Shown piece by piece: positions 105-23,988 of a stretch of 23,992 bases of DNA (position 1 is its first letter; each line of letters opens with the position of its first letter). Source of the stretch: a virus; the IMG/VR virus record IMGVR_UViG_3300017971_000761, positions 1 through 23,992 of that record, one strand, 5' to 3'. The translations under genes and the position numbers were made by a program. The notes under the pieces are model-generated. The model was not told the origin of the DNA, made no database searches, and saw only the letters and a program-made list of their open reading frames with translations.

Positions 105-124
105 GCCCGCAACGAACCGCGGGC
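105..124 (+). other. Intergenic hairpin between tail-tube-position gene and chaperone gene
   Basis: GCCCGC (105-110) pairs perfectly with GCGGGC (119-124) around an 8-nt loop in the 76-nt gap between the partial first gene and the chaperone gene. No T-run follows, so it is not a canonical intrinsic terminator. A processing or attenuation hairpin that lowers chaperone expression relative to the tube protein would make sense here, but that is inference. Confidence 0.4.
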
Positions 125-156
125 CAAGACGTTAGAGAGCAACACAGGAGAGTTAG

Positions 157-5910: not shown

Positions 5911-5912
5911 CC

Positions 5913-6497: not shown

Positions 6498-7216
6498 GCC
6501 AGCTATCAGCCCCAACATGCGTATCCATCCCTGACCCGCCGGCTCGCCTTGAGCTGTCGCTCCCGGGTGGAATGATCATCAAGGGCATTCCGTCCATCGA
6601 GGGCGGGGTGACTACCGAGATCGGCGCAGTCCAGAGCCTGCTCGCTCAAGCGGGGCCGGCGCTCGCGGCGCTGCAGCCTCCATTACTCACCATCGACGCC
6701 GTGGTGGCCTTGTTCAATCTGTTCGGGGCGATCCCCGACCTTATCGCCGGCGACGTCGAGGGATACCTTCAGGCGGTGGAAGAAGCGTTCGAGAAGGTGT
6801 CAAAGCTCACCGGCTTGGTTCCGCAAGTGGCGGTCCCTCGAATGGTGGCCGACACGATCGCCATGCTATCGGCCGCTCTCGATGCGATGGACACACTCGT
6901 CGGCGATGTGGTCGACATGAAAGCCGAGGCTGAAGCAGCAGTGGTGCAAGGGCAAGCAACGAGCAACGCCTACCTAGAAGCACACGGAGAGTGCATCAAG
7001 GTGCAAGCTGACCAGATGGCGAAGCACATCGGGGCGAGCATGGGTCCGATCAATGACATCATGGGCATCGCGTCGAAGCTGATTCAGATGGTTCCTGGCG
7101 GTAGTGAACTTCCGTCCATCGCTGATGCATCGTCTGTTCCGCTAGAGAGTCTTAGCGCCACCATACAGGCGACGAAAACGGTTCTCGATCAACTGCAGAT
7201 TCCGGGGGTGCCATAA
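6494..7216 (+). CDS. Unassigned helical protein in the baseplate cluster
   Basis: A 240-aa frame that starts with TTG at 6494, overlapping the spike stop (TTGA), or possibly with ATG at 6571 (MIIKGIPSIEGG). I do not recognise a family. After a proline-rich opening (SIPDPPARLELSLPGG), residues from about 45 to the end are mostly Ala/Leu/Val-rich helices. A single cysteine occurs near residue 168. There is no signal peptide, and no PAAR-like glycine/histidine repeats although PAAR proteins often lie next to the spike. It ends by TAATG overlap with the gp25-like gene, so it is embedded in the baseplate operon and is probably structural. A hub-interior or spike-associated role is a guess. Confidence 0.6.
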   Translation: MSQLSAPTCVSIPDPPARLELSLPGGMIIKGIPSIEGGVTTEIGAVQSLLAQAGPALAALQPPLLTIDAVVALFNLFGAIPDLIAGDVEGYLQAVEEAFEKVSKLTGLVPQVAVPRMVADTIAMLSAALDAMDTLVGDVVDMKAEAEAAVVQGQATSNAYLEAHGECIKVQADQMAKHIGASMGPINDIMGIASKLIQMVPGGSELPSIADASSVPLESLSATIQATKTVLDQLQIPGVP

Positions 7217-7656
7217 TGGCTGACAGTGGGAGCAGAATCGGCCGGGGTGTGTCGGCTCCGCTGCGCCGCGAGGGCGTCGATTACGCCATGGTCGAAGAGT
7301 ATGCAATGGTTCTTGAGCACTGCGAGCAGATCCTAGGCGTTCGCGGACTGCGCGACGAGGGGCGGAGCGGCGGGGAGTACCCGTGGCGGAAGCGGTTCGG
7401 CGGAGCAGCGGACACGCTTCGACATCTAAACATCAGGACGCGCTCCATCGAGGGCGACATTGCAAAGGTTCTGGTAGCGGACGCAATCCAGGAATGGGAG
7501 CCGCGCGCCGATGTGGAGCTTCCAAACGTGGAATTCAGCATGGACCGCAGGACAGGCAACATCCGAGACATCAAGGTCCGGATTCGCCCCGATGGTGAGG
7601 GCAACTCGCCCGTGCAAGACGTGTCGCGGGTGATCACCAGCGAGGTTAGCAGATGA
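7216..7656 (+). CDS. Baseplate wedge protein, gp25/gpW-like
   Basis: A 146-aa protein starting inside the previous stop (TAATG). It carries the signature of the gp25/gpW lysozyme-like family: GGEYPWRKRFGGAADTLRH, then a helix with IAKVLVADAIQEWEPRADV including the conserved EPR motif of wedge proteins, and a final strand region (GNIRDIKVRIRP). The N-terminal 35 residues are less typical. gp25 proteins anchor the sheath to the baseplate wedge and contact gp6/gpJ, whose homologue is the next gene, overlapping by ATGA. The length is close to the family norm. Confidence 0.85.
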   Translation: MADSGSRIGRGVSAPLRREGVDYAMVEEYAMVLEHCEQILGVRGLRDEGRSGGEYPWRKRFGGAADTLRHLNIRTRSIEGDIAKVLVADAIQEWEPRADVELPNVEFSMDRRTGNIRDIKVRIRPDGEGNSPVQDVSRVITSEVSR

Positions 7657-9177: not shown

Positions 9178-9939
9178 ATGGTTGCCAACGCTTCATTCGA
9201 GACGACCGACTCCAGCAGCTACGCACTGGCGAACAGCTGGACGCTTTCCGGCACCGCGCAGACTGATTCCTTCGCATTGGCGGAGTTCACATCCGACGCA
9301 TACACCGCCGAGGATTTCGAGCGCGGTTGGTCGTCCAATGAAGACAGGATCGCCGCGTTCGTCGGAATCGGCACTGACCTCACAGCCGGCTCGTTCGACT
9401 CGACTACACCAGAGGCATTCGAGGACTTCGAGGAAGAGTGGAGCAGCAACGAGAACCGGTTGGTTGAGTTCGGCTCAACCGTGGCTGGAGTGTTCGACGC
9501 AGCGTTGGATGCATTCGAGGATTTCGAGGAAGAGTGGAGCAGCAACGAGAACCGCAAGACCGCGTTCACCGGCATCGGCGTGGACCTCACCGCTGGGCTG
9601 TATTGGAACACGTCCGCGTCTGCGTCTCTCGCCTACGAAGACTTTGGTGTGCTGGTGATACTCCCGGTCATTGCAGGGGCGGGGGCTTCTGGCGTTTCGC
9701 GCACCATCGATCGCACTGGGATGATCGAGGTCAGGATATCAGGAACATGGTCGGCAACGCTTGAGATTCAAGTGCAGCGCGATGGGTTCTCTTCATGGGT
9801 TGCAGTTGATGACAACATCACATCGAATGGAACAACGGAGCTAGAAGCTGGCATCACAGCGGTTCGAATGCACACAAGCGCGTACAGCTCCGGAACACCC
9901 GGCGCGCACATAATCTTCCGTGACATAGACACGGTATAG
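9178..9939 (+). CDS. Repeat-containing accessory tail protein
   Basis: A 253-aa protein between the gpJ-like gene and further beta-rich genes; ATG 9178 comes one base after the previous stop and has only a weak ribosome site. Residues 1-40 (NASFETTDSSSYALANSW) look like the beginning of a galactose-binding-like fold. Three imperfect repeats follow, starting at residues 45, 82 and 114 with the motif EDFExxWSSNExR; two of the three are followed by F-x-GIGxDLTAG. The last third is beta-rich (GMIEVRISGTWSATLEIQVQ) and resembles small fibre or decoration domains. No catalytic motif is seen. A role in host-surface contact is likely from its position between wedge proteins, but is inferred. The repeats are nearly identical at DNA level, suggesting recent duplication. 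Confidence 0.65.
   Translation: MVANASFETTDSSSYALANSWTLSGTAQTDSFALAEFTSDAYTAEDFERGWSSNEDRIAAFVGIGTDLTAGSFDSTTPEAFEDFEEEWSSNENRLVEFGSTVAGVFDAALDAFEDFEEEWSSNENRKTAFTGIGVDLTAGLYWNTSASASLAYEDFGVLVILPVIAGAGASGVSRTIDRTGMIEVRISGTWSATLEIQVQRDGFSSWVAVDDNITSNGTTELEAGITAVRMHTSAYSSGTPGAHIIFRDIDTV
9310..9560 (+). repeat. Three in-frame EDFExxW repeats within the accessory tail protein gene
   Basis: Repeat starts are at 9310, 9421 and 9517, 111 and 96 bp apart, both multiples of three. Bases 9415-9458 and 9511-9554 (44 bp) differ only at 9426/9522 (C versus T, silent). The first copy is more diverged (EDFERGWSSNEDR against EDFEEEWSSNENR), so the second and third copies arose more recently. Confidence 0.9.
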
Positions 9940-9957
9940 ACAGGAGACGGCAGAGTC

Positions 9958-10644
9958 ATGGCTTCAACCAACTGGACCGCATTGACTGGAGCGCTAGGAA
10001 GCGGCGACGCGGCGATCGGAGTGACGGAAGGTGCGACACCGCCGAACGGTGGCGGAACGTTCGTGTATGGCGCGAGATCGAAGACCGCAACGGAAGGCGT
10101 GATCGGCTTCTATCACAACGGGGCGAACTTCACGCCGCAGACATCCGGCGGTCATGTCTACGGGGCGATCACACGCAACGCCGGCGACAACGGAAACAGC
10201 CCAGTGCTCTTTCAGTCGCTTCAGTCAACGCTTGTGAGCAGCTCGGGTTACCTACTTGGTCTCACCGACGACACAGAGCCCGCGAACATCATCCTGAAGA
10301 AGGGCGCCATGTCAGACGGCATGGCATCCAACGACTCTGGCATCCTCCGCACTTCAACCGCATCGTTTGCCAAGGGGTCTTGGCTACACCTTCGCCTGGA
10401 CGTCATTGAACAACCAAGCGGCGACGTTCGCCTCCGCGTGTTCGCGAACGACCTGTCATCCAACGCCGTGACCTCCCCTTCATGGGCAGCCATCACAGGG
10501 ATGGCCGACTTCATCGACGACGCGCTAGGAGTCAACTCCGGCTCGGTTCCATATATCGGCGGCTACGCCGGCTTCGGTGGCTACTTCAACGGCATCAACC
10601 GCGTGCTGTACTTCGATCACATGGAGATCGCGCGCCAGGTGTAG
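9958..10644 (+). CDS. Putative lectin-like beta-sandwich tail protein
   Basis: A 228-aa protein of unrecognised family, with ATG 9958 after an AGGAGA site. It is rich in Gly, Ser, Thr and Asn throughout. The pattern near the C-terminus (GSWLHLRLDVIEQPSGDVRL, then GGYAGFGGYFNGINRVLYFD and HMEIARQ) is what concanavalin-A/LamG-like beta sandwiches show: a strand with 'W..lrldv', a glycine-rich turn, then a final 'yfDh.ei' strand. Such modules bind glycans at phage tail tips. No active-site residues can be named. It sits between two other beta-rich genes ahead of gpI and the fibre. Lectin-like fold is inference. Confidence 0.55.
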   Translation: MASTNWTALTGALGSGDAAIGVTEGATPPNGGGTFVYGARSKTATEGVIGFYHNGANFTPQTSGGHVYGAITRNAGDNGNSPVLFQSLQSTLVSSSGYLLGLTDDTEPANIILKKGAMSDGMASNDSGILRTSTASFAKGSWLHLRLDVIEQPSGDVRLRVFANDLSSNAVTSPSWAAITGMADFIDDALGVNSGSVPYIGGYAGFGGYFNGINRVLYFDHMEIARQV

Positions 10645-10647
10645 ACC

Positions 10648-11037
10648 ATGGCAGTCCCCCCACTAATGCACGCTATGGGCACCCATAGCGGACGAATCGA
10701 CCCGGTGAACTACGACCCGCCAGGAGGGACCTACGCATGGGTCTTCGGGTCCGACATCGAAGACGTTCTGGTGGACTTGTCGGTGGGCGACTTCGTCACA
10801 CTGACGCAGTCCATTGACGTCACCGCCGTTACCGTTCTCTCGTTCGCGTGCAAGTTCAGGCAAAGCCCTAGCACCACGGCGCAGTTCAAGCTGGAGGTGT
10901 ACGCAGGCACAGCATTGAAGTACACACTACAGCCATCGAGCGGAATCGCGCGGGACTACTCAGCGAGAACCATCAACGTCAGCACACTGACAGGCTCGCA
11001 AAACATCATCTTCAGGTTTGAGGCGGTGAGCCCGTGA
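10648..11037 (+). CDS. Small beta-rich tail protein
   Basis: A 129-aa protein starting at ATG 10648, three bases after the preceding stop. The sequence alternates hydrophobic and polar residues (VTLTQSIDVTAVTVLSFACKF, FKLEVYAGTALKY) and ends with NIIFRFEAVSP, typical of a single beta-sandwich or jelly-roll domain. I cannot place it in a named family. Its stop overlaps the GTG start of the gpI-like gene (GTGA), so it is co-translated with a baseplate component and is probably a virion accessory domain. A carbohydrate-binding module encoded as a separate chain is one possibility. Confidence 0.5.
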   Translation: MAVPPLMHAMGTHSGRIDPVNYDPPGGTYAWVFGSDIEDVLVDLSVGDFVTLTQSIDVTAVTVLSFACKFRQSPSTTAQFKLEVYAGTALKYTLQPSSGIARDYSARTINVSTLTGSQNIIFRFEAVSP

Positions 11038-12872
11038 GCACTGTTGTAGTAGAACTCCCTGGAGTGTACCTGGACACGGTTGCGTCGGCTGCTACGTCTG
11101 GAGTAATCCTTGCGAACACGGCCCCGGAGGCCAGCTCAATAGAAGCAGCAAAAGAGAAGGCGCTTGCATTTGACTTGCTGTGTACAAACGGCAACGCCGT
11201 AGACAAGACCAACACCGATGTTTGGGTGGACGGCGTTCAGGCTGTGTCGTCTGGCGTTGGCGCAAACGGATGGTCGGCCGTCTTCACCATCCTTGGTATC
11301 GCAACGGACTTGATCCCAGACTCTGACATGGAGCTTGCAGGGGTTGCAAGCTGGTCTTACTACACACAAACAAAACTGACAAAAGAGCCAGGCTCACCCG
11401 GCGGCTCCGGAACACAGGTGTTGAGGTTGCGTCGACTGCTGGGAACGAACTATGTTCGAACAAGCCCAGCGTCGTCGCCAAATCTTCCAGGCAACACCAC
11501 GGTTCGGATCAGGGGGTGGGCTCGCTCGGATGGAACAATAACGACCCCGCGCATCCGAGTGTGGGCTTCCCCTTCTTACACGCTGGTGTGGAGCGGAACA
11601 TCATCCACCACATGGCAGCCATTTGACTTCACCTATACCAACTCGTCGCCAGGGGCGAAGTCCCTTGTTCTTGAGGGCGACGCCTTTGGTGTGTCTGGTT
11701 TTTGTTGGGCAGAGTTCGATGACATCATAGTCGACGAGACAGCGGGAAGTGACTACAACGTAGCCCTCTCAAAAGCGGGTGAAGAGTGGGACTCTGAAGA
11801 GGTTGTGCCTGTCCGCGTTGTATCGCAGGACGATGGGGGGCCGGTCGATACACTGGATGAGACCTATTCGTTCACGGTGGAGGACTACGTCTTGCTCACC
11901 GTGGTGTCCGCATCCGCAGAGGGACCGGAGACTGTCAGAGTGACGTTCTCTGAGGGCATGCTAGCAAGCGCGGCAAGCGGTGCAACGGACGCCCTAAACC
12001 CGTCTCTATACACGCTGGCCTACTCACAGAGCGACGCGAATATCGCCGCTGTGTCTGCGTCCGTCACTGCTGTCTCGCAGGTCTCTGCCACTGTCTACGA
12101 ACTCACGACTGATATTCCGCTGACGTTCTGGAAGACGTACACCGTAACCGCCGAGGGCGTGGCGGATGATTCCGCAGCCGGGAACGTCACCGCATCGCCG
12201 AACGCTTCCGCATCGTTCACCGCGTGGGCTCCGCCGGACTGGCCGGACCGGAGGTCATTCGACTTTTACGAAATGTTCTCCGACCACGACCACACGCAAG
12301 ACGTGTCCGGAGACCTGGAGAAGACGTGCTCCATCATGCAAGACGTCATTGACGTCATGCTTTGGAAGGTGTCCGCCTTCTCGGATATATGGGATGTGGA
12401 TGACGCTCCGATCGAGCACGTCCGTGCGATGCTCGCAGACCTGGGGAACCCGTTCGATATCGACTTCACGGAAGCGCAGGAACGCAAGCTGCTGGAGCTT
12501 CTCGTTCCCATCTACAAACAGAAGGGAACAGAGGCCGGCATCATCAACCTGGCGCGCTTCTTTGCCGGGCTGGAGATCACCGACATCGTGCCAGGGCTAG
12601 AAGACACTTGGATTCTTGGCGACGAAGACATGGGGCTCCTTGGGGTCACCACGGTGCTGGCACCAAGTTCAAGCGCATCCAGGTTCTCGTTCAATGTGAT
12701 CGTTGACCGCGCGCTGACTTCGAGCGAGACTTCGATACTGGAAGAGATCATCCGCAAGATGAAGTGCGTTCACGAGCATGCGTACATCGTTGAGCCAGCA
12801 GACCCTGACCACGTTGATCACTGGGAGCTTGGCCTCTCTGAGATCGGATTCAACACCTACCTCCACACGTAG
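11034..12872 (+). CDS. gpI-like baseplate protein with N-terminal carbohydrate-binding-like and Ig-like domains
   Basis: A 612-aa protein with a GTG start overlapping the previous stop. The C-terminal part (about 399-612) resembles the P2 gpI/Mu gp48 tail-protein family: SFDFYEMFSDHDHTQDVSGD, WDVDDAPIEHVRAMLADLG and LLELLVPIYKQKGTEAGIIN, the last being the family's 'LL..iyk.KGT..gi..l' hallmark. In front lie a galactose-binding/CBM-like domain (about 90-231, with LIPDSDMELAGVASW and WAEFDDIIVDE) and a domain like bacterial Ig-like Big_5/SbsA repeats (about 278-395, TVVSASAEGPETVRVTFSEG). P2 gpI is only about a third of this length, so the extra domains are an expansion. gpI connects wedge and fibre. 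The added domains could reach host glycans. Domain borders are estimates. Confidence 0.75.
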   Translation: MSTVVVELPGVYLDTVASAATSGVILANTAPEASSIEAAKEKALAFDLLCTNGNAVDKTNTDVWVDGVQAVSSGVGANGWSAVFTILGIATDLIPDSDMELAGVASWSYYTQTKLTKEPGSPGGSGTQVLRLRRLLGTNYVRTSPASSPNLPGNTTVRIRGWARSDGTITTPRIRVWASPSYTLVWSGTSSTTWQPFDFTYTNSSPGAKSLVLEGDAFGVSGFCWAEFDDIIVDETAGSDYNVALSKAGEEWDSEEVVPVRVVSQDDGGPVDTLDETYSFTVEDYVLLTVVSASAEGPETVRVTFSEGMLASAASGATDALNPSLYTLAYSQSDANIAAVSASVTAVSQVSATVYELTTDIPLTFWKTYTVTAEGVADDSAAGNVTASPNASASFTAWAPPDWPDRRSFDFYEMFSDHDHTQDVSGDLEKTCSIMQDVIDVMLWKVSAFSDIWDVDDAPIEHVRAMLADLGNPFDIDFTEAQERKLLELLVPIYKQKGTEAGIINLARFFAGLEITDIVPGLEDTWILGDEDMGLLGVTTVLAPSSSASRFSFNVIVDRALTSSETSILEEIIRKMKCVHEHAYIVEPADPDHVDHWELGLSEIGFNTYLHT

Positions 12873-12881
12873 GAGAGCAGA

Positions 12882-14201
12882 ATGGACCGCAACGACTTTT
12901 TCTATCGTCAGAGAGTCACCGAGGCAGAGTTGGATGGAGCCTTCGATGATGCCGAGCAGGCACTGTGGGACCTCGCCACAGACACATCGCTATTCGGCGT
13001 GCTCACTGGTGGGGTAGCATCCGAGCACGCTCCGCAAAACATGACCATCGACCTGACAGGGCCGTGCGTCGGCTACGACCAGAACGGCAAGCGTTGTTAT
13101 TTTGGTCCGGTGCAGAATATCGACTGCTCGCAGGACAAAAACGGCGCGGCGACTGCGGTGGTCACTCCGGGCAATCACAAGTACCTGTCAGTGATCCTCC
13201 GGTTCGCGCGCAATAACACAGACGCGCGCACGGACGGGAACGGCGCGACGGTTTACTTCAATTCCGACGAGAGCTTCGTCATTGAGGTAGAGCAATTCTC
13301 CGAGGGGGCTGCGCCGGCCCTTCCGACTCCGCCATCCGATGGCATCCTCCTGTGTAACGTCCAGTTGCATCAGGGCGACACCACAATCGCGAACGCGGAC
13401 ATCGACACCACCAACCGGCACACCTACGAAGGTCCACCCGTAGTGTCTTCTGGTTGGTCCGAGCTTGCGCCGACAAACGACACGATGCAATCGACGTTTG
13501 ACGCTATCGACGCCAAGCTGATTTCGCGCGATGGCTCTGGAGACATCGACCAGACATTGCTTCCAGACGGGACAACGCGCGATCTCGGGAGCGCAGCCAA
13601 AAAGTGGGGCAGCCTCCACACGGAAGACGTCACTCTGTACAACGCGACCGTGGCAGGCGCCGTACAGATGAGCGCAGCAAAGCAGGTGACTCGCTACGAA
13701 AGCCTGGAGACGGTGTGGCCATACGAAGACGGGTCAGCGTCAACCGTCAACGACCAACCCGACTGGATTGTGATATTCGCCAACCCGTACACCCACGCAG
13801 CCCGCAACGTGTATGGCATCACAACCAACCAATACAACGGAGAGGAGTGTGTCCTTCCGTTGCGCGAGTTGATCCACGGTGCGACACTGCAATCCGTCCG
13901 AGCAACTTGGTATCAGAAGATCACCGCTACAACATCAGAGGCGTCAATCGGCATGTTCAAGGTAGCGAACACAGGAGTTCGAACGCAGGTGTTTGCGCCG
14001 GTTGATATCGCCGGGTTTGGCGCGTGGCAGGACGATCAGGTTTTGGCGTCCAGTATGGGAGAGGTTATTGACAAGTCGTCTTACCGCTATTTCCTGCGCA
14101 TCATCAACGGAACACACGGCTCGTCCGCTATCGATCCGTTTATTGCCGCCATCTCCCACATTCAAGACGTGACCGACCTCGGGAAGGCAGTGGCTGGCTA
14201 G
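12882..14201 (+). CDS. Tail-fibre-like protein
   Basis: A 439-aa protein; ATG 12882 is preceded by an AGGAG site embedded in the gpI stop region. The N-terminal 50 residues (MDRNDFFYRQRVTEAELDGA) form a likely baseplate-attachment helix, followed by a beta-rich region. Residues of roughly 220-250 contain TRDLGSAAKKWGSLHTEDV, the 'lGs...kWgsly' element that recurs in the shafts of many tail fibres. The C-terminal 180 residues (LETVWPYEDGSASTVNDQPD, FLRIINGTHGSSAIDPFIAA) are probably a globular receptor-binding head. No chaperone gene for fibre assembly is obvious downstream. Position after gpI is the classical location for fibre genes. Confidence 0.68.
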   Translation: MDRNDFFYRQRVTEAELDGAFDDAEQALWDLATDTSLFGVLTGGVASEHAPQNMTIDLTGPCVGYDQNGKRCYFGPVQNIDCSQDKNGAATAVVTPGNHKYLSVILRFARNNTDARTDGNGATVYFNSDESFVIEVEQFSEGAAPALPTPPSDGILLCNVQLHQGDTTIANADIDTTNRHTYEGPPVVSSGWSELAPTNDTMQSTFDAIDAKLISRDGSGDIDQTLLPDGTTRDLGSAAKKWGSLHTEDVTLYNATVAGAVQMSAAKQVTRYESLETVWPYEDGSASTVNDQPDWIVIFANPYTHAARNVYGITTNQYNGEECVLPLRELIHGATLQSVRATWYQKITATTSEASIGMFKVANTGVRTQVFAPVDIAGFGAWQDDQVLASSMGEVIDKSSYRYFLRIINGTHGSSAIDPFIAAISHIQDVTDLGKAVAG

Positions 14202-14205
14202 TCGC

Positions 14206-14235
14206 TTTCGCTTCACGAGCGCCACGTGTTACGCT
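14206..14235 (+). promoter_or_regulatory. Weak candidate promoter before the lipoprotein gene
   Basis: In the 73-bp gap after the fibre gene, TTTCGC (14206-14211) and TACGCT (14230-14235) are separated by 18 bp. The -10 keeps T1, A2 and T6 of the sigma-70 consensus; the -35 is poor. The sequence following it (CAGGATTCCGACAACCCACA) loosely resembles the CAGATGACGCACAC segment after the three promoters further right. Could equally be chance. Confidence 0.3.
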
Positions 14236-14274
14236 GTGGCAGGATTCCGACAACCCACAACGCAGGAGTTAGAG

Positions 14275-14841
14275 ATGAAGAACATTCGCCCCCTTTTGGC
14301 CGTCGCGCTTGCGGTCTCGCTTGCAGGCTGTTCAGGCTGTAGTGACACGCCATACAAGCGCATCGCTACCGCCTACCACACCCTTGACCTGTTCAAGGCG
14401 CTGGTCGAGGATTTCGACGGAGCGGTGACGAAATACGCAGCCGCGAAGCAGACCGAATGCCTGAAGACACACAGGCCGAAGACGAAGGAGTTCGACGCAT
14501 GCGTGATGCCTGCTGTCAGGCTGCTTCGGGCATGGACCGGGAAGAAGAATGGGAAGCCTACCGGGAAGGGTGTGCTCCCGGCTATCCAGTCCACGCAGCG
14601 AGCCGCCGCGATCGAACTGAAGGCCGTGCTCGCCTACATCAAGAGCCACGAGGCGGAGTGCGGCAAGAAGGACGCCCCGAAGAACTGCACCGGCGACTGG
14701 CAGGGACTACTGAAGCCATCGGTGTGTGCTCTCATGGAGATCATCGACCGGGCTGTGAAGCTCGGCGCCTACGACGTCACCACAAACCGAACTTACCTCA
14801 TGGTGAAAGCAGCGATTGCGGGATTCACCTGCAACCGATGA
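14275..14841 (+). CDS. Predicted phage lipoprotein
   Basis: A 188-aa protein. ATG 14275 was chosen because an AGGAG site lies 7 bases upstream and the signal peptide begins there; an in-frame GTG at 14236 would put 13 polar residues before it. Residues 1-18 form a signal with two basic residues and a hydrophobic core, ending in the lipobox LAGC with C19 as lipidated cysteine. S20 at +2 favours outer-membrane sorting in Gram-negatives. The mature part is helical and charged, with several further cysteines that could pair in the periplasm. Function is not recognised. Candidates are a superinfection-exclusion lipoprotein, a spanin-type lysis lipoprotein (but it is long for Rz1), or a virion-unrelated moron. 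It follows the fibre gene. Confidence 0.75.
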   Translation: MKNIRPLLAVALAVSLAGCSGCSDTPYKRIATAYHTLDLFKALVEDFDGAVTKYAAAKQTECLKTHRPKTKEFDACVMPAVRLLRAWTGKKNGKPTGKGVLPAIQSTQRAAAIELKAVLAYIKSHEAECGKKDAPKNCTGDWQGLLKPSVCALMEIIDRAVKLGAYDVTTNRTYLMVKAAIAGFTCNR

Positions 14842-14855
14842 AGGGAGAGAGAACC

Positions 14856-15077
14856 ATGGCAGCAGTAAACATTGGTCTCCTGGTTTTCGAGACGCTGGCG
14901 AAGCTGGCGCCGAAGCTATACGACTACGTGAAAAGTCTGATCGACGGCGGAGCTGACGCGGCCGAACTCGCGGCGAAGCCGGTGGAGGTCTTCGTCTCGT
15001 TCGGCGGTGGAGACGGGAAGGCGATCACGATCCAGCAGGACATCGAGTCAAACATGCTCGACCCTGACGCAGAGTAG
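14856..15077 (+). CDS. Small hypothetical protein (73 aa)
   Basis: ATG 14856 follows GGGAGAGAGAACC, a strong ribosome site, 14 bases after the lipoprotein stop; a larger in-frame reading that runs back into the lipoprotein gene is a shadow. The 73 residues start with an amphipathic helix (VFETLAKLAPKLYDYVKSLI), then an acidic and glycine-rich tail. There is no clear transmembrane segment, so a holin is not supported. It shares an operon with the lipoprotein, and the two may work together, but no family is recognised. It is convergent with the next gene, with a 34-bp gap that shows no terminator hairpin. Confidence 0.6.
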   Translation: MAAVNIGLLVFETLAKLAPKLYDYVKSLIDGGADAAELAAKPVEVFVSFGGGDGKAITIQQDIESNMLDPDAE

Positions 15078-16347: not shown

Positions 16348-17448
16348 ATGACCACCACGACGACGAAAAAGACGGTGAAGGAAGTTCGCAACGACCTGGA
16401 AAGCGCGATGCAGGAAGGGGGGCACCTCGGCGACCTGGTGAACTGGAGCATCCGCGTCGGGGCTGGTGTGCTACCGGAAGAGGTCGAGAAGGCGCTGACC
16501 GACAACGAGCTGGACACCAGCTACATGCCCAACCACCCGAGCGACCTGTCAGCTGTCCAGCGGGTGATGCGCGAGTTCAAGCGTCAGGGGTTCGTCTTCC
16601 GCAAGCTGGCGAACGACGACGGGCACACCCTGTGGGCGGTGGCTTCCACTGAGGTGGACGCGGACGCCAAGGTCGGGGACCGAGCTGGCGAGGTGGTCAA
16701 CCAGATGGCCTTCCTGAAGCCGACCGGCGAGATGGTCTTCGACCGCGAGGATGAGCCCACCGCGCAAGCTATGGCCGGAGCGTTCTCCCGGTACAAGGGG
16801 CGCTACGATCGGGACATGCTCCGCGGGATGGTCAAGAACTTCCTGCTCGGCAAGTTCAACGGCGTGAAGATGTCCTCCGGCATGGGTCTCTGCTTCGTGC
16901 CTACCGACGCGGTGGACGAGGTCCGGCGACTGGAGCAAGCCGTCGCGATGCTCGGCGAGTCCGAGTTGGGTGTGCTCCCGGTGCCCGGCACCCCCGGGGC
17001 GAAGCGCACGGTCGGGAACAGCATCCGCGAAGCGGTGGAGAGCAAGGTGGAGAAGTTCCGCGCCGAGATGGACGCCTGGAGCGAGGACACCCGCCCGAGC
17101 ACGATCGAGCGTCGCATGTCCGCCTACGCCGACCTCCGGCGCCAGGCGAACGACCTGCGGACCTTCCTGGACCAGACCAACGCGGACCTCCTGGAAGACA
17201 TCGACGGGCTGGCCAAGAACGCGAAGGCCATGCTGGAGAGCGCGGTGGACCCCGACGCAGAGAGCCGGAAACCGAAGACGGTCCGCAAGGCGAAGCCAGC
17301 AGCGAAGAAGGCCATCCCCGCGGAGCACGCCACCGACCGACCAGACCGGTTGCTCAAGGCGGACCTGAAGCGTACCTGCAAGGAGGCCGGCATCGACACC
17401 CGCGGGATGAAGGTCAAGGACATGCGGGAAGCCCTCGCGGCTCTCTAG
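16348..17448 (+). CDS. Unit 1 large protein with SAP-like C-terminus (366 aa)
   Basis: ATG 16348 uses a ribosome site identical to that of the previous gene. I do not identify the family firmly; similar proteins accompany phage MoxR/vWA genes in my memory (possibly DUF6744), but this needs a profile search. Visible parts: a helical N-terminal region with a hydrophobic WSIRVGAGVLPEEVEKAL; a central segment (FRKLANDDGHTLWAVAS; FSRYKGRYDRDMLRGMVKNF); a long charged helical/coiled-coil stretch at about 235-300; a Lys/Ala-rich linker at about 300-330; and a final 33 residues reading LLKADLKRTCKEAGIDTRGM then KDMREALAAL, the helix-extended-loop-helix pattern of SAP/HeH DNA-binding modules. As the first large gene before the RavA-like and ViaA-like genes it is a candidate third component or substrate adaptor. 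Confidence 0.72.
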   Translation: MTTTTTKKTVKEVRNDLESAMQEGGHLGDLVNWSIRVGAGVLPEEVEKALTDNELDTSYMPNHPSDLSAVQRVMREFKRQGFVFRKLANDDGHTLWAVASTEVDADAKVGDRAGEVVNQMAFLKPTGEMVFDREDEPTAQAMAGAFSRYKGRYDRDMLRGMVKNFLLGKFNGVKMSSGMGLCFVPTDAVDEVRRLEQAVAMLGESELGVLPVPGTPGAKRTVGNSIREAVESKVEKFRAEMDAWSEDTRPSTIERRMSAYADLRRQANDLRTFLDQTNADLLEDIDGLAKNAKAMLESAVDPDAESRKPKTVRKAKPAAKKAIPAEHATDRPDRLLKADLKRTCKEAGIDTRGMKVKDMREALAAL

Positions 17449-17544: not shown

Positions 17545-17572
17545 TTGACACCCCGGCTCACTGTGATACAAC
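17545..17572 (+). promoter_or_regulatory. Promoter 2 of the three-unit region
   Basis: TTGACA (17545-17550), a perfect -35, with 16 bp to TACAAC (17567-17572), preceded by an A/T-rich tract (17524-17541) like an UP element. CAGATGACGCA follows at 17579-17589. It drives the small zinc-site protein and the RavA-like gene. Confidence 0.85.
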
Positions 17573-17616: not shown

Positions 17617-17781
17617 ATGAACACCGACACCAACAACACCCCTGTCATCAACCTCGACCCCGCCGAGCACAAGGACTGTGTATGCTGCGACGGCCACCCG
17701 GACGACGACGGCTTCTTCATCAACGAGGTTGGCGACTGGGAGCCGTGCGCCATCTGCGGCGGATGGGGATGGCGCGACTAG
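17617..17781 (+). CDS. Small cysteine-rich, probably zinc-binding protein of unit 2 (54 aa)
   Basis: ATG 17617 has AGGAG a few bases upstream; a second in-frame ATG at 17581, in the conserved CAGATGACGCA, would add 12 residues (MTHRNTHTEEST). The protein carries CVCCDGH (residues 21-27) and CAICGGWGW (44-52), two cysteine pairs 20 residues apart of the kind that bind zinc in rubredoxin-knuckle or DnaJ-like zinc ribbons. Between them is an acidic loop (PDDDGFFINEVGDWEP). It has no recognisable family. As the leading gene of the RavA-like unit it may be an adaptor or redox/metal partner of the ATPase, which is inference from position. Confidence 0.75.
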   Translation: MNTDTNNTPVINLDPAEHKDCVCCDGHPDDDGFFINEVGDWEPCAICGGWGWRD

Positions 17782-17860: not shown

Positions 17861-19012
17861 ATGACCACCACGAAGACCCCAGCCGAGAAGCTGTCCACGA
17901 TGCGGAGCCAGCTCCGCGGTAAGTTCCTGGAGCGCACCGCCGAGATCGACGGGCTGCTTTGCGCGATGCTAGCGCGACACCACGTGCTTCTGCTGGGCCC
18001 TCCCGGCGAAGCGAAGTCCGCCCTGGCCTCTGTGGTCACCGACGCGATCACCGGCGCCGACCTGTTTCAGGTCCTGCTCACGAAGACCACCACGCCGGAG
18101 GAAATCTGCGGGCCCCTGGACCTCCCCGCGCTGGAGCAAGGGCACTACCGGCGGAAGGTGGACGGCTACCTCCCGACCGCTCACATCGCCTACATCGACG
18201 AGACGTTCAAGGGTAGCTCCGCCATCCTGAACACGATGCTCACCGCCCTGAATGAGCGTTCCTTTGACAACGACGGCGGACGCCACGACATCCCCTTGAT
18301 GACCGCGGTGGGTGCGAGCAACGAACTCCCCGACGATCGCGACCTCGGCGCCCTGTATGACCGCTTCCTGCTGCGTTACTGGGTGGAGCCTGTCAAGACC
18401 CGCTCCGCCCGTCGGACGCTTCTACAGCGCAACGGGGCGAGCCTGAACATCACGGAGACGATGACCCTGGCCGAGCTGGAGACGGCGATCGAAGACGTCG
18501 AGAAGGTCACCCTGGAAGACACCATCGTCGACCGGCTGCTGGACATCCGCGAAGCCCTGGAGGACATGAGCATCGTCGCCAGCGACCGCCGATGGATCCA
18601 GATCATCCGGCTCCTGAAAGCCCGCGCCTACCTCGACGGCTGCGACTCGGTGGAGACCAGACACCTATCCATCTTGTGCGACTGCCTGTGGAAGGAGCCC
18701 AAGGAGCGGAGCGAGGTGGTGAAGGTTGTGAACAAGCTGGCGCACCCCGTCACCGCGGAAGCCCTCGAAGCCCTCGACGCGGCCGAGTCCGAGGTGGAGA
18801 AGGTGCCCGGGTTCACCGGCTCGAATCACGCGGACGTCATCAACGGCGTTCGGGCTGTGGTCCGCAAGCTGACCGCGGTGGTCAACGACCTCGACGGACT
18901 GCCCAGCAAGGCCCCCGAGTCCGAGTCCGCCGAGATTGACCAGGCCATGGCGAAGGTCGACGCAATGATCTCCGCCGCGAAGGCGAAGGCCGAGAAGCTG
19001 GTCGAACTGTAG
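17861..19012 (+). CDS. RavA-like MoxR-family AAA+ ATPase
   Basis: A 383-aa protein; ATG 17861 after AAAGGAGAGACCG. Walker A is GPPGEAKS (46-53), Walker B IAYIDE (109-114), then the MoxR-type NTMLTALNERSF (124-135) and sensor region VGASNELPDD followed by LYDRFLLRYWVE with an arginine suited to the finger role. TTPEEICGPLDLPAL and the ASNELP motif match the RavA branch more closely than generic MoxR. E. coli RavA is about 498 aa; here the sequence after about 320 is a helical, charged tail, so the LARA domain that binds the lysine decarboxylase in E. coli is probably missing. MoxR ATPases remodel or load client proteins together with a vWA partner, and a ViaA-like protein is encoded by the next unit. 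Its own promoter and a strong terminator bracket the unit. Confidence 0.88.
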   Translation: MTTTKTPAEKLSTMRSQLRGKFLERTAEIDGLLCAMLARHHVLLLGPPGEAKSALASVVTDAITGADLFQVLLTKTTTPEEICGPLDLPALEQGHYRRKVDGYLPTAHIAYIDETFKGSSAILNTMLTALNERSFDNDGGRHDIPLMTAVGASNELPDDRDLGALYDRFLLRYWVEPVKTRSARRTLLQRNGASLNITETMTLAELETAIEDVEKVTLEDTIVDRLLDIREALEDMSIVASDRRWIQIIRLLKARAYLDGCDSVETRHLSILCDCLWKEPKERSEVVKVVNKLAHPVTAEALEALDAAESEVEKVPGFTGSNHADVINGVRAVVRKLTAVVNDLDGLPSKAPESESAEIDQAMAKVDAMISAAKAKAEKLVEL

Positions 19013-19021
19013 GCTCTCCTG

Positions 19022-19060
19022 GACCGGCCCGGGGTGGCTCCCGGGTCGGTCGTTTCTTCT
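19022..19060 (+). terminator. Intrinsic terminator after the RavA-like gene
   Basis: GACCGGCCCGGG (19022-19033) pairs with CCCGGGTCGGTC (19040-19051), 12 bp with one G-U, loop GTGGCT, followed by a T-rich GTTTCTTCT. It lies 9 bases after the stop and just before promoter 3, cleanly separating units 2 and 3. Confidence 0.85.
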
Positions 19061-19072
19061 GAAACAAAGTGC

Positions 19073-19101
19073 TTGACGCGGGGCCGATTCGGCGCTACAA
19101 C
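19073..19101 (+). promoter_or_regulatory. Promoter 3 of the three-unit region
   Basis: TTGACG (19073-19078), 17 bp, TACAAC (19096-19101), with CAGATGACGCA at 19108-19118. The -35 begins 12 bases after the terminator T-tract ends. It drives the 99-aa protein, the WGR-vWA protein and probably the genes after it. Confidence 0.82.
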
Positions 19102-19143
19102 TGTAACCAGATGACGCACGCAACCAACACACGGAGCAACAAC

Positions 19144-19443
19144 ATGAACGCCATCGACAACGCCGTCCGCATCGCCCGCAACGCCTACAACAACGCCATG
19201 AAGGAAGACTCCGTATTCCTCAACCTCCACGTTGTCGACGGCTGGTCCTGGTCTTCCCTGGTTACTGTGTCCGGCAAGTCATACGCATGCACCGCCGTCA
19301 CCCGCCGCGACTTGAACGGTGGCGAACAGCGGATGATCGAGGTCATGCCATGCGGTCCTAGCGTCAAGAAGAACTGGATCATGCTGGTCTCCCTGGAGGA
19401 CCACGAGGAAGCGGAGCACGTGAAGGGCGCAGAGTTCCACTAG
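19144..19443 (+). CDS. Small hypothetical protein of unit 3 (99 aa)
   Basis: ATG 19144 has GGAG seven bases upstream; an in-frame ATG at 19111 within the conserved downstream box would add 11 residues (MTHATNTRSNN). The protein begins with a helix (NAVRIARNAYNNAMKEDSVF), has a beta-rich middle (LNLHVVDGWSWSSLVTVSG, then KSYACTAVTRRDLNGGEQRM) and an acidic, histidine-containing end (DHEEAEHVKGAEFH). No family or membrane segment is recognised. It leads the unit that encodes the ViaA-like protein, in the same position as the small proteins of units 1 and 2. Confidence 0.7.
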   Translation: MNAIDNAVRIARNAYNNAMKEDSVFLNLHVVDGWSWSSLVTVSGKSYACTAVTRRDLNGGEQRMIEVMPCGPSVKKNWIMLVSLEDHEEAEHVKGAEFH

Positions 19444-19449
19444 CCACCA

Positions 19450-19489
19450 CCGGGCGTCGTGCCCGGCGAAGCTCCACAGGGGCTTCACC
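19450..19489 (+). other. Two-hairpin intercistronic RNA element, copy 3
   Basis: Hairpin 1: CCGGGC (19450-19455) with GCCCGG (19461-19466). Hairpin 2: GAAGCTCC (19468-19475) with GGGGCTTC (19479-19486), loop ACA, one G-U. The stems differ in sequence from copies 1 and 2 but remain paired. CGACGCGACG follows. Confidence 0.8.
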
Positions 19490-19519
19490 CGACGCGACGG
19501 ACGACCAAAGGAGAGCACG

Positions 19520-21244
19520 ATGATCAGACTGGAGAACACCCGCGGAGGCTCGAACAAGTTCTACGAAATCTGGACAGCCGACACATCCGGCCAGCACGTG
19601 GTCATGGCTCGGTACGGTGCCATCGGCACCCCAGGGACGACCATCACGAAAGACGCCTTCGACATGCCACGCAACGCGGAGCGATACATCGGCGCAGTGG
19701 TCAAATCGAAGCTCCGCCGAGGTTACGTTCAGGTGGCCGACCTCTCCAGCGTGCTCGGCACCCCCGAGAAACCCGAGGTGGTGGACGGCGTCCCCAAGGA
19801 CGTGGTCAACCCGGACGGCGATCTCGCCTTCGAGACCGACGCCGGAGTCCGGTACGCTTGGCGAAAATTCGTTGGCGCGGCCGACTGTCGCGACGCGGTG
19901 GAGACGATGGAGGCGGAGCACGAGGGGGGCGCCGAGTTCGTCCGCGAGGTGTTCGGCCGGCTCCACGACGGCGACCTCATCGAGAAGGCCGAGCCCGATC
20001 AGTGGGCGCAGTGGGCGCACGACCGAGCTTCCGAGGTCCCCGAGTTCGCCGCCATGGCCGACGAGGTCCGCGGAGATCGGTGGGAGTCTGGATGCGTCGC
20101 AGTCGCCGTCTCCCGCGCGGTGATGGCACAGATGGACCAGGACGCCCAGGACCAGGAGAACGGCCAGCAGAACGCGAACCAGGGCGCAGGAGAGGGAAGC
20201 CAGTGCGACCAGGACGGGGACCAGGACGGAGACGGCGAAGGACAGGGCAACGGGCCCGCTCTCCCAGAGTCCGGGGCGGGCACCCGCCAGGCCATCCGCC
20301 AGGCACTGCGCCAAGCTCAAGAGCAGATCGAAAACGAGCGCGAAGCCGCGGAAGCAATGGCCAGCGGATGGGGGACCGGCGGAGGCTCGGACGTCTTCCC
20401 GGGAGACGGGCTCGCGCAGAAGGCAGCCCTGGCTGACCTGGTCAAGGCCATCCCAGACTTTCGCCGCATCATGGAGATCGCTGGACGGATGCGCGGGGTA
20501 GCCGAGGCCAAGCGCAAGGAGCGGACCCGCGAGGTCCCCGAAGAGGTCGCGGACGTGGACCAGGGAGCCGACTTCGCGCGAACCCTCCCGGTTGAACTGG
20601 CGAAGCTCCGCGGAGCCCCCGGGCTGCGTCTCGACTTCTTCCGGCGCTACGTCGAGAAGTCCACCCTGGTCTACAGTCTCCAGGGCAACGAAGCGAAAAA
20701 GCGCGGACCGATCGTCGTCCTGCTGGATTGCTCCGGCTCGATGGAGGGACAGCGCGACATCTGGAGCAAGGCCCTCGCTATCGCGATGCTGAACGTGGCT
20801 ACCACCGAGCGCCGCCCCTTCGCAGCGATCACCTATGACGGCGACTGGCGCAACGTCTACGCCGTTGATCGCTCGTCAGCGAACTCGGCGGAGCGCGTTC
20901 GGAACACTGCCGAGCTACTCAACGAGCGCGCCGACGGACACTCCACCGACTGGGAGCGCCCCCTTCGGAAAGCGTGGGACGTGATGGAGGATGAGGACTT
21001 CGCAAAGGCCGATGTAGTGATGCTCACCGACGGATCGTGCCGAGTCTCCGACGAGTTCAAGCGAGAGTGGTCGGAGTGGCGAGAGGCGCGCGGGGTCACC
21101 GCGTTCGGGTTCTGCATCGACGGCCGGGTGGACAACCTCGACGCCATCATGGACGAGGTCCACACCATCGACTCCCGCGCAGCCGAGGACAACGACGGAT
21201 TCACCGCCATGGTCAACGAGGTGGTTGGCGACACCATCAACTAA
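19520..21244 (+). CDS. WGR domain fused to a ViaA-like von Willebrand A protein
   Basis: A 574-aa protein; ATG 19520 after AAAGGAGAGCACG. Residues 1-72 look like a WGR domain (NKFYEIWTADTSGQHVV, then ARYGAIGTPGT). A helical part and an acidic, Gln/Gly-rich linker (206-245) follow. Residues 316-396 resemble the ViaA stem before its vWA domain: EVPEEVADVDQGADFARTLP, then FFRRYVEKSTLVYSLQGNE and RGPIVVLLD. The vWA domain (397-574) has a full MIDAS set: DCSGS (403-407), T476 in HSTDWERPL, and D504 in MLTDGS, so it should bind Mg. ViaA partners RavA in E. coli, and the RavA-like gene is adjacent. WGR domains also occur in MolR, encoded near the MoxR/vWA genes yehL/yehP in E. coli, so this fusion joins known associates. 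Function in the phage is not known. Confidence 0.87.
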   Translation: MIRLENTRGGSNKFYEIWTADTSGQHVVMARYGAIGTPGTTITKDAFDMPRNAERYIGAVVKSKLRRGYVQVADLSSVLGTPEKPEVVDGVPKDVVNPDGDLAFETDAGVRYAWRKFVGAADCRDAVETMEAEHEGGAEFVREVFGRLHDGDLIEKAEPDQWAQWAHDRASEVPEFAAMADEVRGDRWESGCVAVAVSRAVMAQMDQDAQDQENGQQNANQGAGEGSQCDQDGDQDGDGEGQGNGPALPESGAGTRQAIRQALRQAQEQIENEREAAEAMASGWGTGGGSDVFPGDGLAQKAALADLVKAIPDFRRIMEIAGRMRGVAEAKRKERTREVPEEVADVDQGADFARTLPVELAKLRGAPGLRLDFFRRYVEKSTLVYSLQGNEAKKRGPIVVLLDCSGSMEGQRDIWSKALAIAMLNVATTERRPFAAITYDGDWRNVYAVDRSSANSAERVRNTAELLNERADGHSTDWERPLRKAWDVMEDEDFAKADVVMLTDGSCRVSDEFKREWSEWREARGVTAFGFCIDGRVDNLDAIMDEVHTIDSRAAEDNDGFTAMVNEVVGDTIN

Positions 21245-21936: not shown

Positions 21937-22788
21937 GTGAAGATTGAACGCAACACCCCGAAGCCCGGGGTCTACTTTGACGTGCCATTTGAGGAGTACC
22001 TGACTTGGGATGCGCTCTCTCGGTCCGAGGGGGTAACCTTCGAGACCACCACGCCGGCGCAATACCGCTACCACCTTGACCACCCAAAGAAGGTTGGCGA
22101 CGCGGCTGACCTCGGCTCCGCCGTGGACACCTACGTCTTCGAGGGGGCAGAAGCGTTCGGCGAGAAGTTCCACCGCATCCCGCAAGGCATGCGACGCGAC
22201 AAGCGCACGAAGGCATACAAGGAGCAACTGGCAGAAGCAGACGGCCGCCGCATGTTGCGAGCCGAGGACTACGACGAGGTCGAAGCACTGGGCAAGGCCG
22301 CCGTGAATCACGACGAGGTCAAGGCGTTCCTGGCCGAGGGCTCCGCACAAATGACCATCGTCTGGGAAGACAGGAGGACGGGCATCCTTTGCAAGGCGCG
22401 CCCCGACTTCTACTCCACAGCGAAGGGCGCCCCGGTCATCCTTGACATGAAGGTCACCCGCAAGTGGGAGCCTGAAGCATTCGCGCGAGACCTGCCGACG
22501 TCGATGCTCCATTGGCAAGCCGCGTGGTACCTGCGAGGCGCATCCGAGGCTTTTCAGTTCGAGCACGACAGCTTCATGTTCTTCCTGGTGAAGCCCACCC
22601 CCGTCCACACGGTGAGCGTCGCGGACACGTCGCTCGGAACCATCGACCTGGCGAACGCGCAGATCGATCGCATGCTCGCGCGGTTCAAGCTATGCGCCGA
22701 GCGCAACGAATGGGAGAAGGACATCCCCGGCATCGTGCCGATCGACCTCCCGAGCTGGTACTACCGATCCTTCGACGAAGCTCAGTAA
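21937..22788 (+). CDS. RecE/DUF3799-like PD-(D/E)XK nuclease
   Basis: A 283-aa protein with a GTG start at 21937 behind AAAGGAG. The opening (GVYFDVPFEEYLTWDALSRS) is typical of the RecE C-terminal/DUF3799 family ('G.y..i....Y....a.S.s'). The nuclease core reads LGSAVDTYVFEGAEAFGEKF (59-78), then TGILCKARPDFY (148-159), then VILDMKVT (167-174), giving D157, D170 and K172, and QAAWYLRG (194-201) with the expected Gln and Tyr. The RecB-type motif I usually has a histidine where D64 stands here. RecE-like nucleases resect dsDNA ends and work with a single-strand-annealing protein. The next gene, 12 bases downstream, is a candidate partner. Confidence 0.82.
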   Translation: MKIERNTPKPGVYFDVPFEEYLTWDALSRSEGVTFETTTPAQYRYHLDHPKKVGDAADLGSAVDTYVFEGAEAFGEKFHRIPQGMRRDKRTKAYKEQLAEADGRRMLRAEDYDEVEALGKAAVNHDEVKAFLAEGSAQMTIVWEDRRTGILCKARPDFYSTAKGAPVILDMKVTRKWEPEAFARDLPTSMLHWQAAWYLRGASEAFQFEHDSFMFFLVKPTPVHTVSVADTSLGTIDLANAQIDRMLARFKLCAERNEWEKDIPGIVPIDLPSWYYRSFDEAQ

Positions 22789-22800
22789 AAGGAGAGACCC

Positions 22801-23988
22801 ATGACGAACAAGAAGACCCCCGCGCCCGCGACGCCGGCTCACCCCGAGGTCATCGACCAGAGCGGACTTGCGGTGAACTCGCACAAAGAGCTTTCGCCCG
22901 AGCGACTCCGCGCCCGCATCAACAAGATTCAGGAGCTGATCGCGGATGTCCTCGTCGAGGATGTCCATTATGGCATCATCCCCGGCACACGGAAGCGCAC
23001 TCTCTACAAAGCCGGAGCTGAATACTTGATGCTTCTGTTCGGGCTCCATCTCACCGACGTGGAGGCCGAAGACATTTCCGGCAAGGACGAGGTCCGCTAT
23101 CGCGTGACCACCCGTCTCCGCGATGCTCGCGGGTTCATCATCGCCACCGGCGTGGGTGAGTGTTCCAGCTCCGAGGAGAAATACGCCTGGCGCGCAGCGG
23201 TGTGTGATGAGGAATGGGAGGACTACCCCGAACACCGGCGCCGGAAGAAGTGGAAGCAGTCCGGCGACTGCATCAAGCAAGTCTCCACCACGCCCGCCGA
23301 TCAAGCGAACACGGTCCTGAAGATGGCCAAGAAACGCAGCATGATTGACGTGGTCCTGACGGGGACCGCAGCGTCGGATTGTTTCGAGCAGGACATGGAG
23401 GAAGGCAGCCCGGCCAGCGAGCACAACAAAGCGAACAAGAGGCGCGGAAGCAACCGCCGCAAGAAGGCCGGCGGTAAGGCGCAACACATCGCTGCGATCC
23501 AGTCGGTGAAGGTCAAGAAGACCGGCGGAGACGGCGACAAGGCGTGGACAATCTGGACCGTCACCGCCGAAGACGGGAAGGCGTTCGATCTCGCCTTTGA
23601 CAAGAAGCTCCACGCGGTGGCCGACGAGCTGGCCGGAACCGGCGTGGTGGTTTCCATCGAGTGGGAGTCCACCCAATACGGCCCCAAGCTGCTGGGCATC
23701 ACCGACCACACCCCGCAGACACCAGCCGACGAGCCACCACCGCCCGATGACGGCGATGCACTGCCACCCGGGGACCAGGACACCCCCGAGGGGGAGAACG
23801 CCCAGGAGAACGCGAACCAGGGCGCCACAGGCGGAGCCACCCTTGCAGACCTGAAGGCGGAGAAGGAGCGCACCGGGCTGACCTGGGACGACATCCGCAG
23901 CATCGCCAAGAAGGCCGGAGTCAAGGGAGCGTCGTCGAAGTCCTGGAAGCCGGACGAGATCGCACGCATCATCGCGGAGCTTCCTTGA
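22801..23988 (+). CDS. Recombination-associated protein: possible annealing domain, OB-like domain and SAP/HeH-like tail
   Basis: A 395-aa protein; ATG 22801 after AAAGGAGAGACCC. Part 1 (about 30-200) has patterns I associate with a conserved phage/bacterial family: VEDVHYGIIPGTRKRTLYKA, GVGECSSSEEKYAWR, NTVLKMAKKRSMIDVVLTGT and ASDCFEQD, reminiscent of Rad52/ERF-like annealing proteins, where a late helix carries 'K.A.KRa..dA'. Part 2 (228-302) looks like an OB fold (SVKVKKTGGDGDKAWTIWTV; GVVVSIEWESTQYGPKLLGI). An acidic Pro/Gln linker (305-345) follows. The last 48 residues (LADLKAEKERTGLTWDDIRS, IAKKAG, KPDEIARIIAEL) resemble a HeH/SAP module. Position after a RecE-like nuclease supports an annealing or ssDNA-binding role, but the assignment is tentative. 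Confidence 0.6.
   Translation: MTNKKTPAPATPAHPEVIDQSGLAVNSHKELSPERLRARINKIQELIADVLVEDVHYGIIPGTRKRTLYKAGAEYLMLLFGLHLTDVEAEDISGKDEVRYRVTTRLRDARGFIIATGVGECSSSEEKYAWRAAVCDEEWEDYPEHRRRKKWKQSGDCIKQVSTTPADQANTVLKMAKKRSMIDVVLTGTAASDCFEQDMEEGSPASEHNKANKRRGSNRRKKAGGKAQHIAAIQSVKVKKTGGDGDKAWTIWTVTAEDGKAFDLAFDKKLHAVADELAGTGVVVSIEWESTQYGPKLLGITDHTPQTPADEPPPPDDGDALPPGDQDTPEGENAQENANQGATGGATLADLKAEKERTGLTWDDIRSIAKKAGVKGASSKSWKPDEIARIIAELP

Follow-up and report, generated by a model that had tools for sequence, protein, structure and literature searches.

What does a virus gain from a pair of proteins related to the ATPase RavA and its von Willebrand factor A (vWA) domain partner ViaA, and on which client would such a pair act? 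Most of what is known of MoxR/vWA machines concerns the maturation of metabolic, respiratory or ribosomal complexes and, to our knowledge, few of them have a known client. We analysed the IMG/VR virus record IMGVR_UViG_3300017971_000761, the whole of which (23,992 bases) is referred to as the window. An earlier reading of its letters alone (the sequence-only reading) had proposed a two-gene unit, encoding a RavA-like MoxR AAA+ ATPase and a ViaA-like protein fused to a WGR domain. The pair was confirmed, with the boundaries of both open reading frames (ORFs) exactly as first given, but a third gene just upstream, encoding a DUF6744 protein, had been missed. We found that the DUF6744, RavA-like and ViaA-like genes are linked in phages as well as in plasmids, and that WGR and SAP modules recur on or beside them. 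Judged from these sequences, the cassette may be a mobile-element MoxR AAA+/vWA machine that uses ATP to remodel replication or recombination complexes bound to DNA, a reading that we favour tentatively.

The RavA-type assignment of the ATPase was confirmed by the NF010054 profile (E 9e-64, residues 1-293) and by RavA chains in the PDB (E 4e-53, residues 8-283). The protein carries Walker A (GPPGEAKS) and Walker B (IDE) motifs, sensor 1 (N154), an arginine finger and AAA_lid_8. The NF010054 match stopped at residue 293, which is position 301 of the 498-position model, and revealed no LARA domain in the 383-residue protein. Its C-terminus lies roughly at the point at which LARA would start, so that the domain is absent, as had been supposed. 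The ViaA-like protein matched NF008230 (E 4e-21), residues 332-505 aligning with model positions 245-426, and the MIDAS, already described as complete, proved invariant or nearly so at D403-x-S405-x-S407, T476 and D504 among 44 aligned sequences. AlphaFold2 modelled its helical N-terminal domain, stem and vWA domain with confidence (predicted local distance difference test score, pLDDT, mostly >85), and Foldseek searches with the model returned vWA structures, including one chain of a NorQD complex. The NF008230 match was not full-length, and both profile scores were far below the equivalog cut-offs (216 versus 681 bits for NF010054, 75.9 versus 500 bits for NF008230). Thus, the claimed kinship held at the level of the families but not as orthology, and the window pair is, by these scores, a pair of RavA/ViaA relatives rather than orthologues.

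In the ATPase tree, the closest relative of the window protein was that of locus L010 (support 98), and enterobacterial RavA was placed on a separate long branch, apart from the DUF6744-linked proteins. A takeover of the host by way of its respiratory or membrane complexes, on the model of E. coli RavA-ViaA, would be in keeping with the sequence kinship, but neither the missing LARA domain nor the separate branch favours it, and a fused DNA-binding-type domain together with DUF6744 does not fit the E. coli model. We consider this explanation very improbable. The hits in Campylobacter phages A11a (L004, MG065691) and A18a (MG065686), both UNVERIFIED records, were set aside as likely enterobacterial DNA; their RavA/ViaA genes are almost identical to enterobacterial chromosomal ravA-viaA, and host contamination or mis-assembly is probable.

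The third gene was identified as DUF6744 by PF20529 (E 1.3e-9, 37.8 bits against a cut-off of 27). Its AlphaFold2 model, built with 54 sequences (pLDDT 88), comprised a mixed alpha/beta head and a bundle of long helices, and this fold had no match in the PDB (best E 0.076). The C-terminal tail of the window protein (about residues 330-366) was modelled as a SAP-like helix-loop-helix with helices at 337-346 and 356-365, its SAP score being sub-threshold (14.9 versus 23.9 bits). In the DUF6744 protein of L010, the tail is recognised unambiguously as a SAP domain (38.2 bits, E 1e-9). Our literature search found no mention of DUF6744, nor of a WGR domain together with MoxR.

Viral relatives were collected by alignment-based scans of IMG/VR, with near-copies removed at 90% identity; single-protein searches of IMG/VR had returned zero close relatives, and alignments of widely diverged ViaA proteins had too little conservation to serve as queries. 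Of the 108 non-redundant viral loci found to carry the RavA-like gene, 103 also have a ViaA-like gene, co-oriented and no more than 4 kb away. The viral MoxR/vWA pair is therefore real but not rare, with more than 100 viral loci in addition to prior reports. A linked DUF6744 gene was present in 68 of the 108 loci, always within 6 kb and co-oriented in 67; this fraction is not a population frequency, since the sample was fished with the family's own sequences. Among the 66 loci with all three genes, the order was DUF-RavA-ViaA in 43, RavA-ViaA-DUF in 16, RavA-DUF-ViaA in six and another in one. When plasmids were searched with DUF6744 alone (two queries), 15 records were obtained, and every one had a RavA-like match within about 3 kb. 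In cellular genomes, where loci were found via ViaA, DUF6744 was present in only 4 of 28 non-redundant loci, one of them nearly identical to a Pseudanabaena plasmid. Within the sampled loci, DUF6744 thus occurs almost wholly on mobile elements.

Fifteen other non-redundant viral loci carried an unrelated 405-residue gene in the place of DUF6744, preceding a block with DNA polymerase A. In the ATPase tree these loci make up one clade, in which DUF6744 was never present. In L020-L038 (e.g. L028:8639-9856), this family-less protein is encoded immediately 5' of the RavA-like gene and forms a constant block together with genes for DNA polymerase A, a helix-turn-helix protein and an SSB-like (single-stranded-DNA-binding) protein. 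Neither the 405-residue gene (group B loci) nor an approximately 300-residue gene (group C) proved to be a hidden DUF6744, as profile-profile probabilities were below 1%; the latter is a reverse transcriptase. A reverse transcriptase gene followed the ViaA-like gene in eleven viral loci (L082, L090, L097, L098, L101, L107, L108, L110, L111, L112 and L126; RVT_1 E 1.9e-25 for L082:12948-13871), where an ORF of about 2000 residues lies on the opposite strand, and in these loci a MoxR/vWA pair is perhaps associated with a diversity-generating retroelement. Short LARA-less pairs without DUF6744 (L170, L173, L175-L183, L189, L193-L197) formed one well-supported clade from Sulfolobales and Desulfurococcales, with one contig labelled Euryarchaeota. 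Listeria plasmids, among them pCFSAN004330 (L205, 6995-7939), have a lone, shortened RavA-like gene with no vWA partner annotated, whose product has 40.6% identity to the window protein.

The plasmids bear directly on whether the pair remodels tail or capsid proteins as a virion-assembly chaperone. Precedents for such a role are the proposals made for jumbo phages of group 2.2, which have a MoxR/vWA pair, and for p618/p892 of ATV (PMC7824862, in which ATV is cited; PMC7911831). The order of genes is compatible with it: the left part of the window holds genes for the tail and baseplate of a phage with a contractile tail, followed by unassigned genes, the cassette (outside the tail genes, as had been noted), a nuclease and a last gene, and L010 likewise keeps homologues of the genes at window positions 9178-15077 ahead of its cassette. 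However, the same trio occurs in plasmids that need no virion. The Nocardia cassette plasmid also has relaxase and conjugation genes and that of Pseudanabaena a CyRepA1 replication gene, so that both are true plasmids by their other genes; capsid and portal searches do not separate plasmids from phage-plasmids, as two real phages in the set were also negative. Moreover, the cassette has promoter-like sites of its own, and replication or recombination genes neighbour it in 39 of the 68 DUF6744 loci. Virion assembly is made less likely by the true plasmids, and we regard it as rather unlikely. Plasmid occurrence and this neighbourhood also weakened the roles on virion parts or host membrane complexes suggested by the sequence-only reading.

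The WGR domain fused to the ViaA-like protein was supported by PF05406 (E 1.2e-9, 38.6 bits against a cut-off of 22; positions 6-75 of 79). A one-sequence model had suggested that WGR was confined to the window, which was overturned when the Pfam model was run over the cassette-bearing viral records (about 70). The fusion to the ViaA-like protein was seen only in the window, and separate WGR genes adjoin DUF6744 in L145 (E 8.6e-19) and L141 (E 2.9e-13), with intact signatures (QWGRRG and HWGRVG, respectively). A sub-threshold WGR (7e-5) lies between DUF6744 and the RavA-like gene in L054, and a WGR gene lies about 6 kb from the RavA-like gene in L069. About 9 kb from the cassette of L134, WGR heads an ATP-dependent-DNA-ligase-like protein; the record (L215, about 5000-6500, minus strand) shows WGR followed by ligase-like sequence (EQKYDGIR). 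The sole other match was in a record of the reverse-transcriptase type, far from the cassette, and contains a stop. WGR-cassette distances in five records were below those of random placement (p ~0.003, L141 and L145 being related), and the WGR-bearing loci were spread over three distinct regions of the ATPase tree, besides the window. Fusion in one virus and adjoining genes in others are a classical sign of a functional link. Since WGR of PARP2/3 binds DNA breaks (PMC4081085), and WGR is here fused to one part of the machine, the suggested client is DNA-bound replication or repair complexes.

The neighbouring genes are consistent with such a client. A recognisable replication or recombination gene was present within the fetched flanks in 39 of the 68 DUF6744 loci: PD-(D/E)XK nuclease (20), Sak4-like ATPase (12), ResIII helicase (10), DnaB (10), PolA (8), ligases (6) and SNF2 helicase (5). 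Sak4-like genes, for which we take AAA_24 to be a marker, lay closer to the cassette (median 7.9 kb) than expected of random placement within those records (p ~0.001). The phrog_2 terminase was dropped as a distance control because it matched in just 7 of 44 records. Several plasmid cassettes lie near genes for DnaN (DNA polymerase III beta), SSB, a primase-type zinc finger or a helicase.

Alternatively, the pair could mature a metalloprotein by inserting the metal of a phage enzyme (ribonucleotide reductase, for instance), a function for which NorQD offers a model (PMC13036017). Ribonucleotide reductase genes do occur near DUF6744 in Moorella phage MTATph1 and in HVTV-1, but of 44 viral records with the cassette only 5 contained the large subunit, always at a distance of >35 kb from the RavA-like gene, and no other conserved metalloenzyme neighbour was seen. 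Ribonucleotide reductase was therefore rejected as the client, being rare and distant, and metalloprotein maturation in general appears improbable.

A conflict system (anti-phage, inter-plasmid or counter-defence) would need a ternary arrangement in which DUF6744 serves as sensor or effector. The three-gene architecture and the near restriction of DUF6744 to mobile elements in the sample agree with this, as does the best Pfam model for the ATPase, bpMoxR (PF20030, E 6.5e-51), which derives from MoxR-vWA-beta-propeller ternary systems. Nevertheless, Pfam revealed no nuclease, TIR, peptidase or nucleotide-signalling effector domain in the three proteins, and PADLOC gave just weak P-loop and WGR similarity, the latter to WGR_XIII. 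We consider a conflict system unlikely.

For remodelling of DNA-bound complexes, a mechanism can be sketched on the model of NorQD, a MoxR ring with a vWA partner whose finger enters the pore and whose vWA domain is turned by ATP cycles so as to strain the client (PMC13036017). The RavA-like protein would form an ATP-driven hexamer, in which the ViaA-like vWA protein would dock and pass on force as NorD does for NorQ. DUF6744 would be a dedicated client or client adaptor, and the WGR domain and the SAP-like DUF6744 tail would hold the machine on phage DNA at nicks or ends. ATP cycles could then load, unload or dismantle replication or recombination proteins during phage DNA replication. Complex formation, ATPase activity, DNA binding and the client are all points that we infer. 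Still more tentatively, phages and plasmids may share an undescribed DUF6744/RavA-like/ViaA-like machine of this kind, recruited to DNA by WGR or SAP in some viruses, which would be the first MoxR/vWA system with a mobile-element nucleoprotein as client.

Several observations weigh against this interpretation. The WGR signature of the window is RYGAIG rather than xWGRxG, a degenerate form that may have another ligand, so that DNA binding by this domain is a real uncertainty. Structure prediction did not confirm the WGR fold: residues 1-84 had pLDDT below 50 and zero alignment depth, because none of the 43 other alignment rows has WGR. WGR was present in 6 of about 70 cassette-bearing records and is thus not essential to a general mechanism. 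Among the DUF6744 tails elsewhere, a net charge of at least +3 was found in 12 of 32, and many of the proteins are tailless. DnaB linkage was marginal (p ~0.05), and the neighbourhood as a whole is weak evidence because phage replication genes cluster anyway.

The features of the cassette are given in the table. The motif TTGAC-N17/18-TACAAC occurs twice in the window against 0.01 expected, one consensus match ahead of each gene of the pair. A promoter-like site per unit and a terminator-like hairpin in between make the RavA-like and ViaA-like genes look like two neighbouring transcription units, each opening with a small ORF, which supports the promoters of their own first proposed from the letters. 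Ribosome-binding-like AAAGGAGAG lies upstream of both main ORFs, whose base composition is typical of coding sequence, with a strong third-position GC of 0.89 (RavA-like) and 0.83 (ViaA-like). The small ORF ahead of the ViaA-like gene had no Pfam or PHROGs match and no homologue in the related loci. Positions 22801-23988, 3' of the RecE-like nuclease, matched phrog_10048 (E 2.4e-37) and had no Pfam or PDB match; by its position, the product is perhaps a strand-annealing protein. Upstream of its cassette, L010 encodes a putative amidoligase (6243-7394; PF12224, E 7.7e-56).

Table. Features of the cassette and its surroundings in the window, with domains of the ViaA-like protein given in residues
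Feature	Position	Strand	Length	Remarks
DUF6744 gene	16348..17448	+	366 aa	third cassette component
Promoter-like element TTGAC-N17-TACAAC	17545..17572	+		ahead of RavA-like gene; consensus match
Small ORF with CxxC-type zinc-ribbon-like motifs	17617..17781	+	54 aa	GAGGAGAG precedes; read from sequence
RavA-like MoxR AAA+ ATPase gene	17861..19012	+	383 aa	
Terminator-like hairpin	19022..19051	+	13 pairs (10 GC)	directly 3' of RavA-like gene
Promoter-like element TTGAC-N18-TACAAC	19073..19101	+		ahead of ViaA-like unit; consensus match
Small ORF	19144..19443 (listed ORF 19069-19443)	+	~99 aa from second internal ATG	third-position GC 0.84
ViaA-like vWA protein gene	19520..21244	+	574 aa	
ViaA-like protein: WGR	residues 3-72			
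ViaA-like protein: helical N-terminal domain	residues ~105-222			
ViaA-like protein: acidic linker	residues ~223-250			
ViaA-like protein: stem	residues 253-390			
ViaA-like protein: vWA with MIDAS	residues 396-557			
RecE/exonuclease VIII-like PD-(D/E)XK nuclease	21937..22788	+		phrog_412 E 2.6e-55, DUF3799 E 7e-17; context, outside cassette

Conserved in 15 plasmids and more than 60 viral loci, the trio has a third protein of its own whose fold matches no solved structure, and DNA-binding modules keep appearing on it or beside it; it would thus point to a client class new to this ATPase family. The cassette would also provide the first functional setting for DUF6744, in a trio that is defined and testable.

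Compared with E. coli RavA-ViaA, the window pair has a similar AAA+ core with AAA_lid_8 (about 40% identity), the ViaA stem, a vWA domain with MIDAS and adjacent genes, but it lacks LARA, its genes are separated by a terminator-like hairpin and a second promoter-like site, and it adds the N-terminal WGR and the DUF6744 partner. Moorella phage MTATph1 (OR602862) shares the gene order of the window (DUF6744, RavA-like, ViaA-like) and continues with MazE-like and Rad52-like genes; in contrast to the window, its ViaA has no WGR and its DUF6744 is tailless, and the products are annotated just as 'ATPase' and 'hypothetical'. MoxR/vWA pairs are on record for Bacillus phage 0305phi8-36 (orf66/orf63, PMC2147016), haloviruses Hardycor1 and HVTV-1 (PMC7911831) and jumbo phages (PMC7824862, citing ATV p618/p892). 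In the relevant passages of these papers, a MoxR-type or AAA ATPase gene lies beside or near that of a vWA partner as in the window, but WGR fusion and DUF6744 are not mentioned, and jumbo phages have a metallopeptidase fusion instead. The archaeal virus HVTV-1 does encode a DUF6744 protein, gp25 (profile E 2.3e-26, with a Foldseek match and matching length), about 15 kb from its AAA/vWA pair. The MoxR-vWA-beta-propeller conflict systems (PMC7159879) likewise combine MoxR, vWA and a system-specific third protein and share the bpMoxR model, but no beta-propeller, VMAP or effector was found in the present proteins, and the setting is that of phages and plasmids. The window domain scores over the PF05406 cut-off like the WGR proteins MolR, PARP1-3 and the retron-type WGR_XIII of PADLOC, and differs from them in its degenerate W-G-R signature and in being joined to a ViaA-like vWA protein. 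The MoxR/vWA pair itself is already known and ordinary in viruses; the link with DUF6744, the occurrence of this cassette in phages, in plasmids and in an archaeal virus, and the WGR and SAP appendages appear to be described here for the first time.

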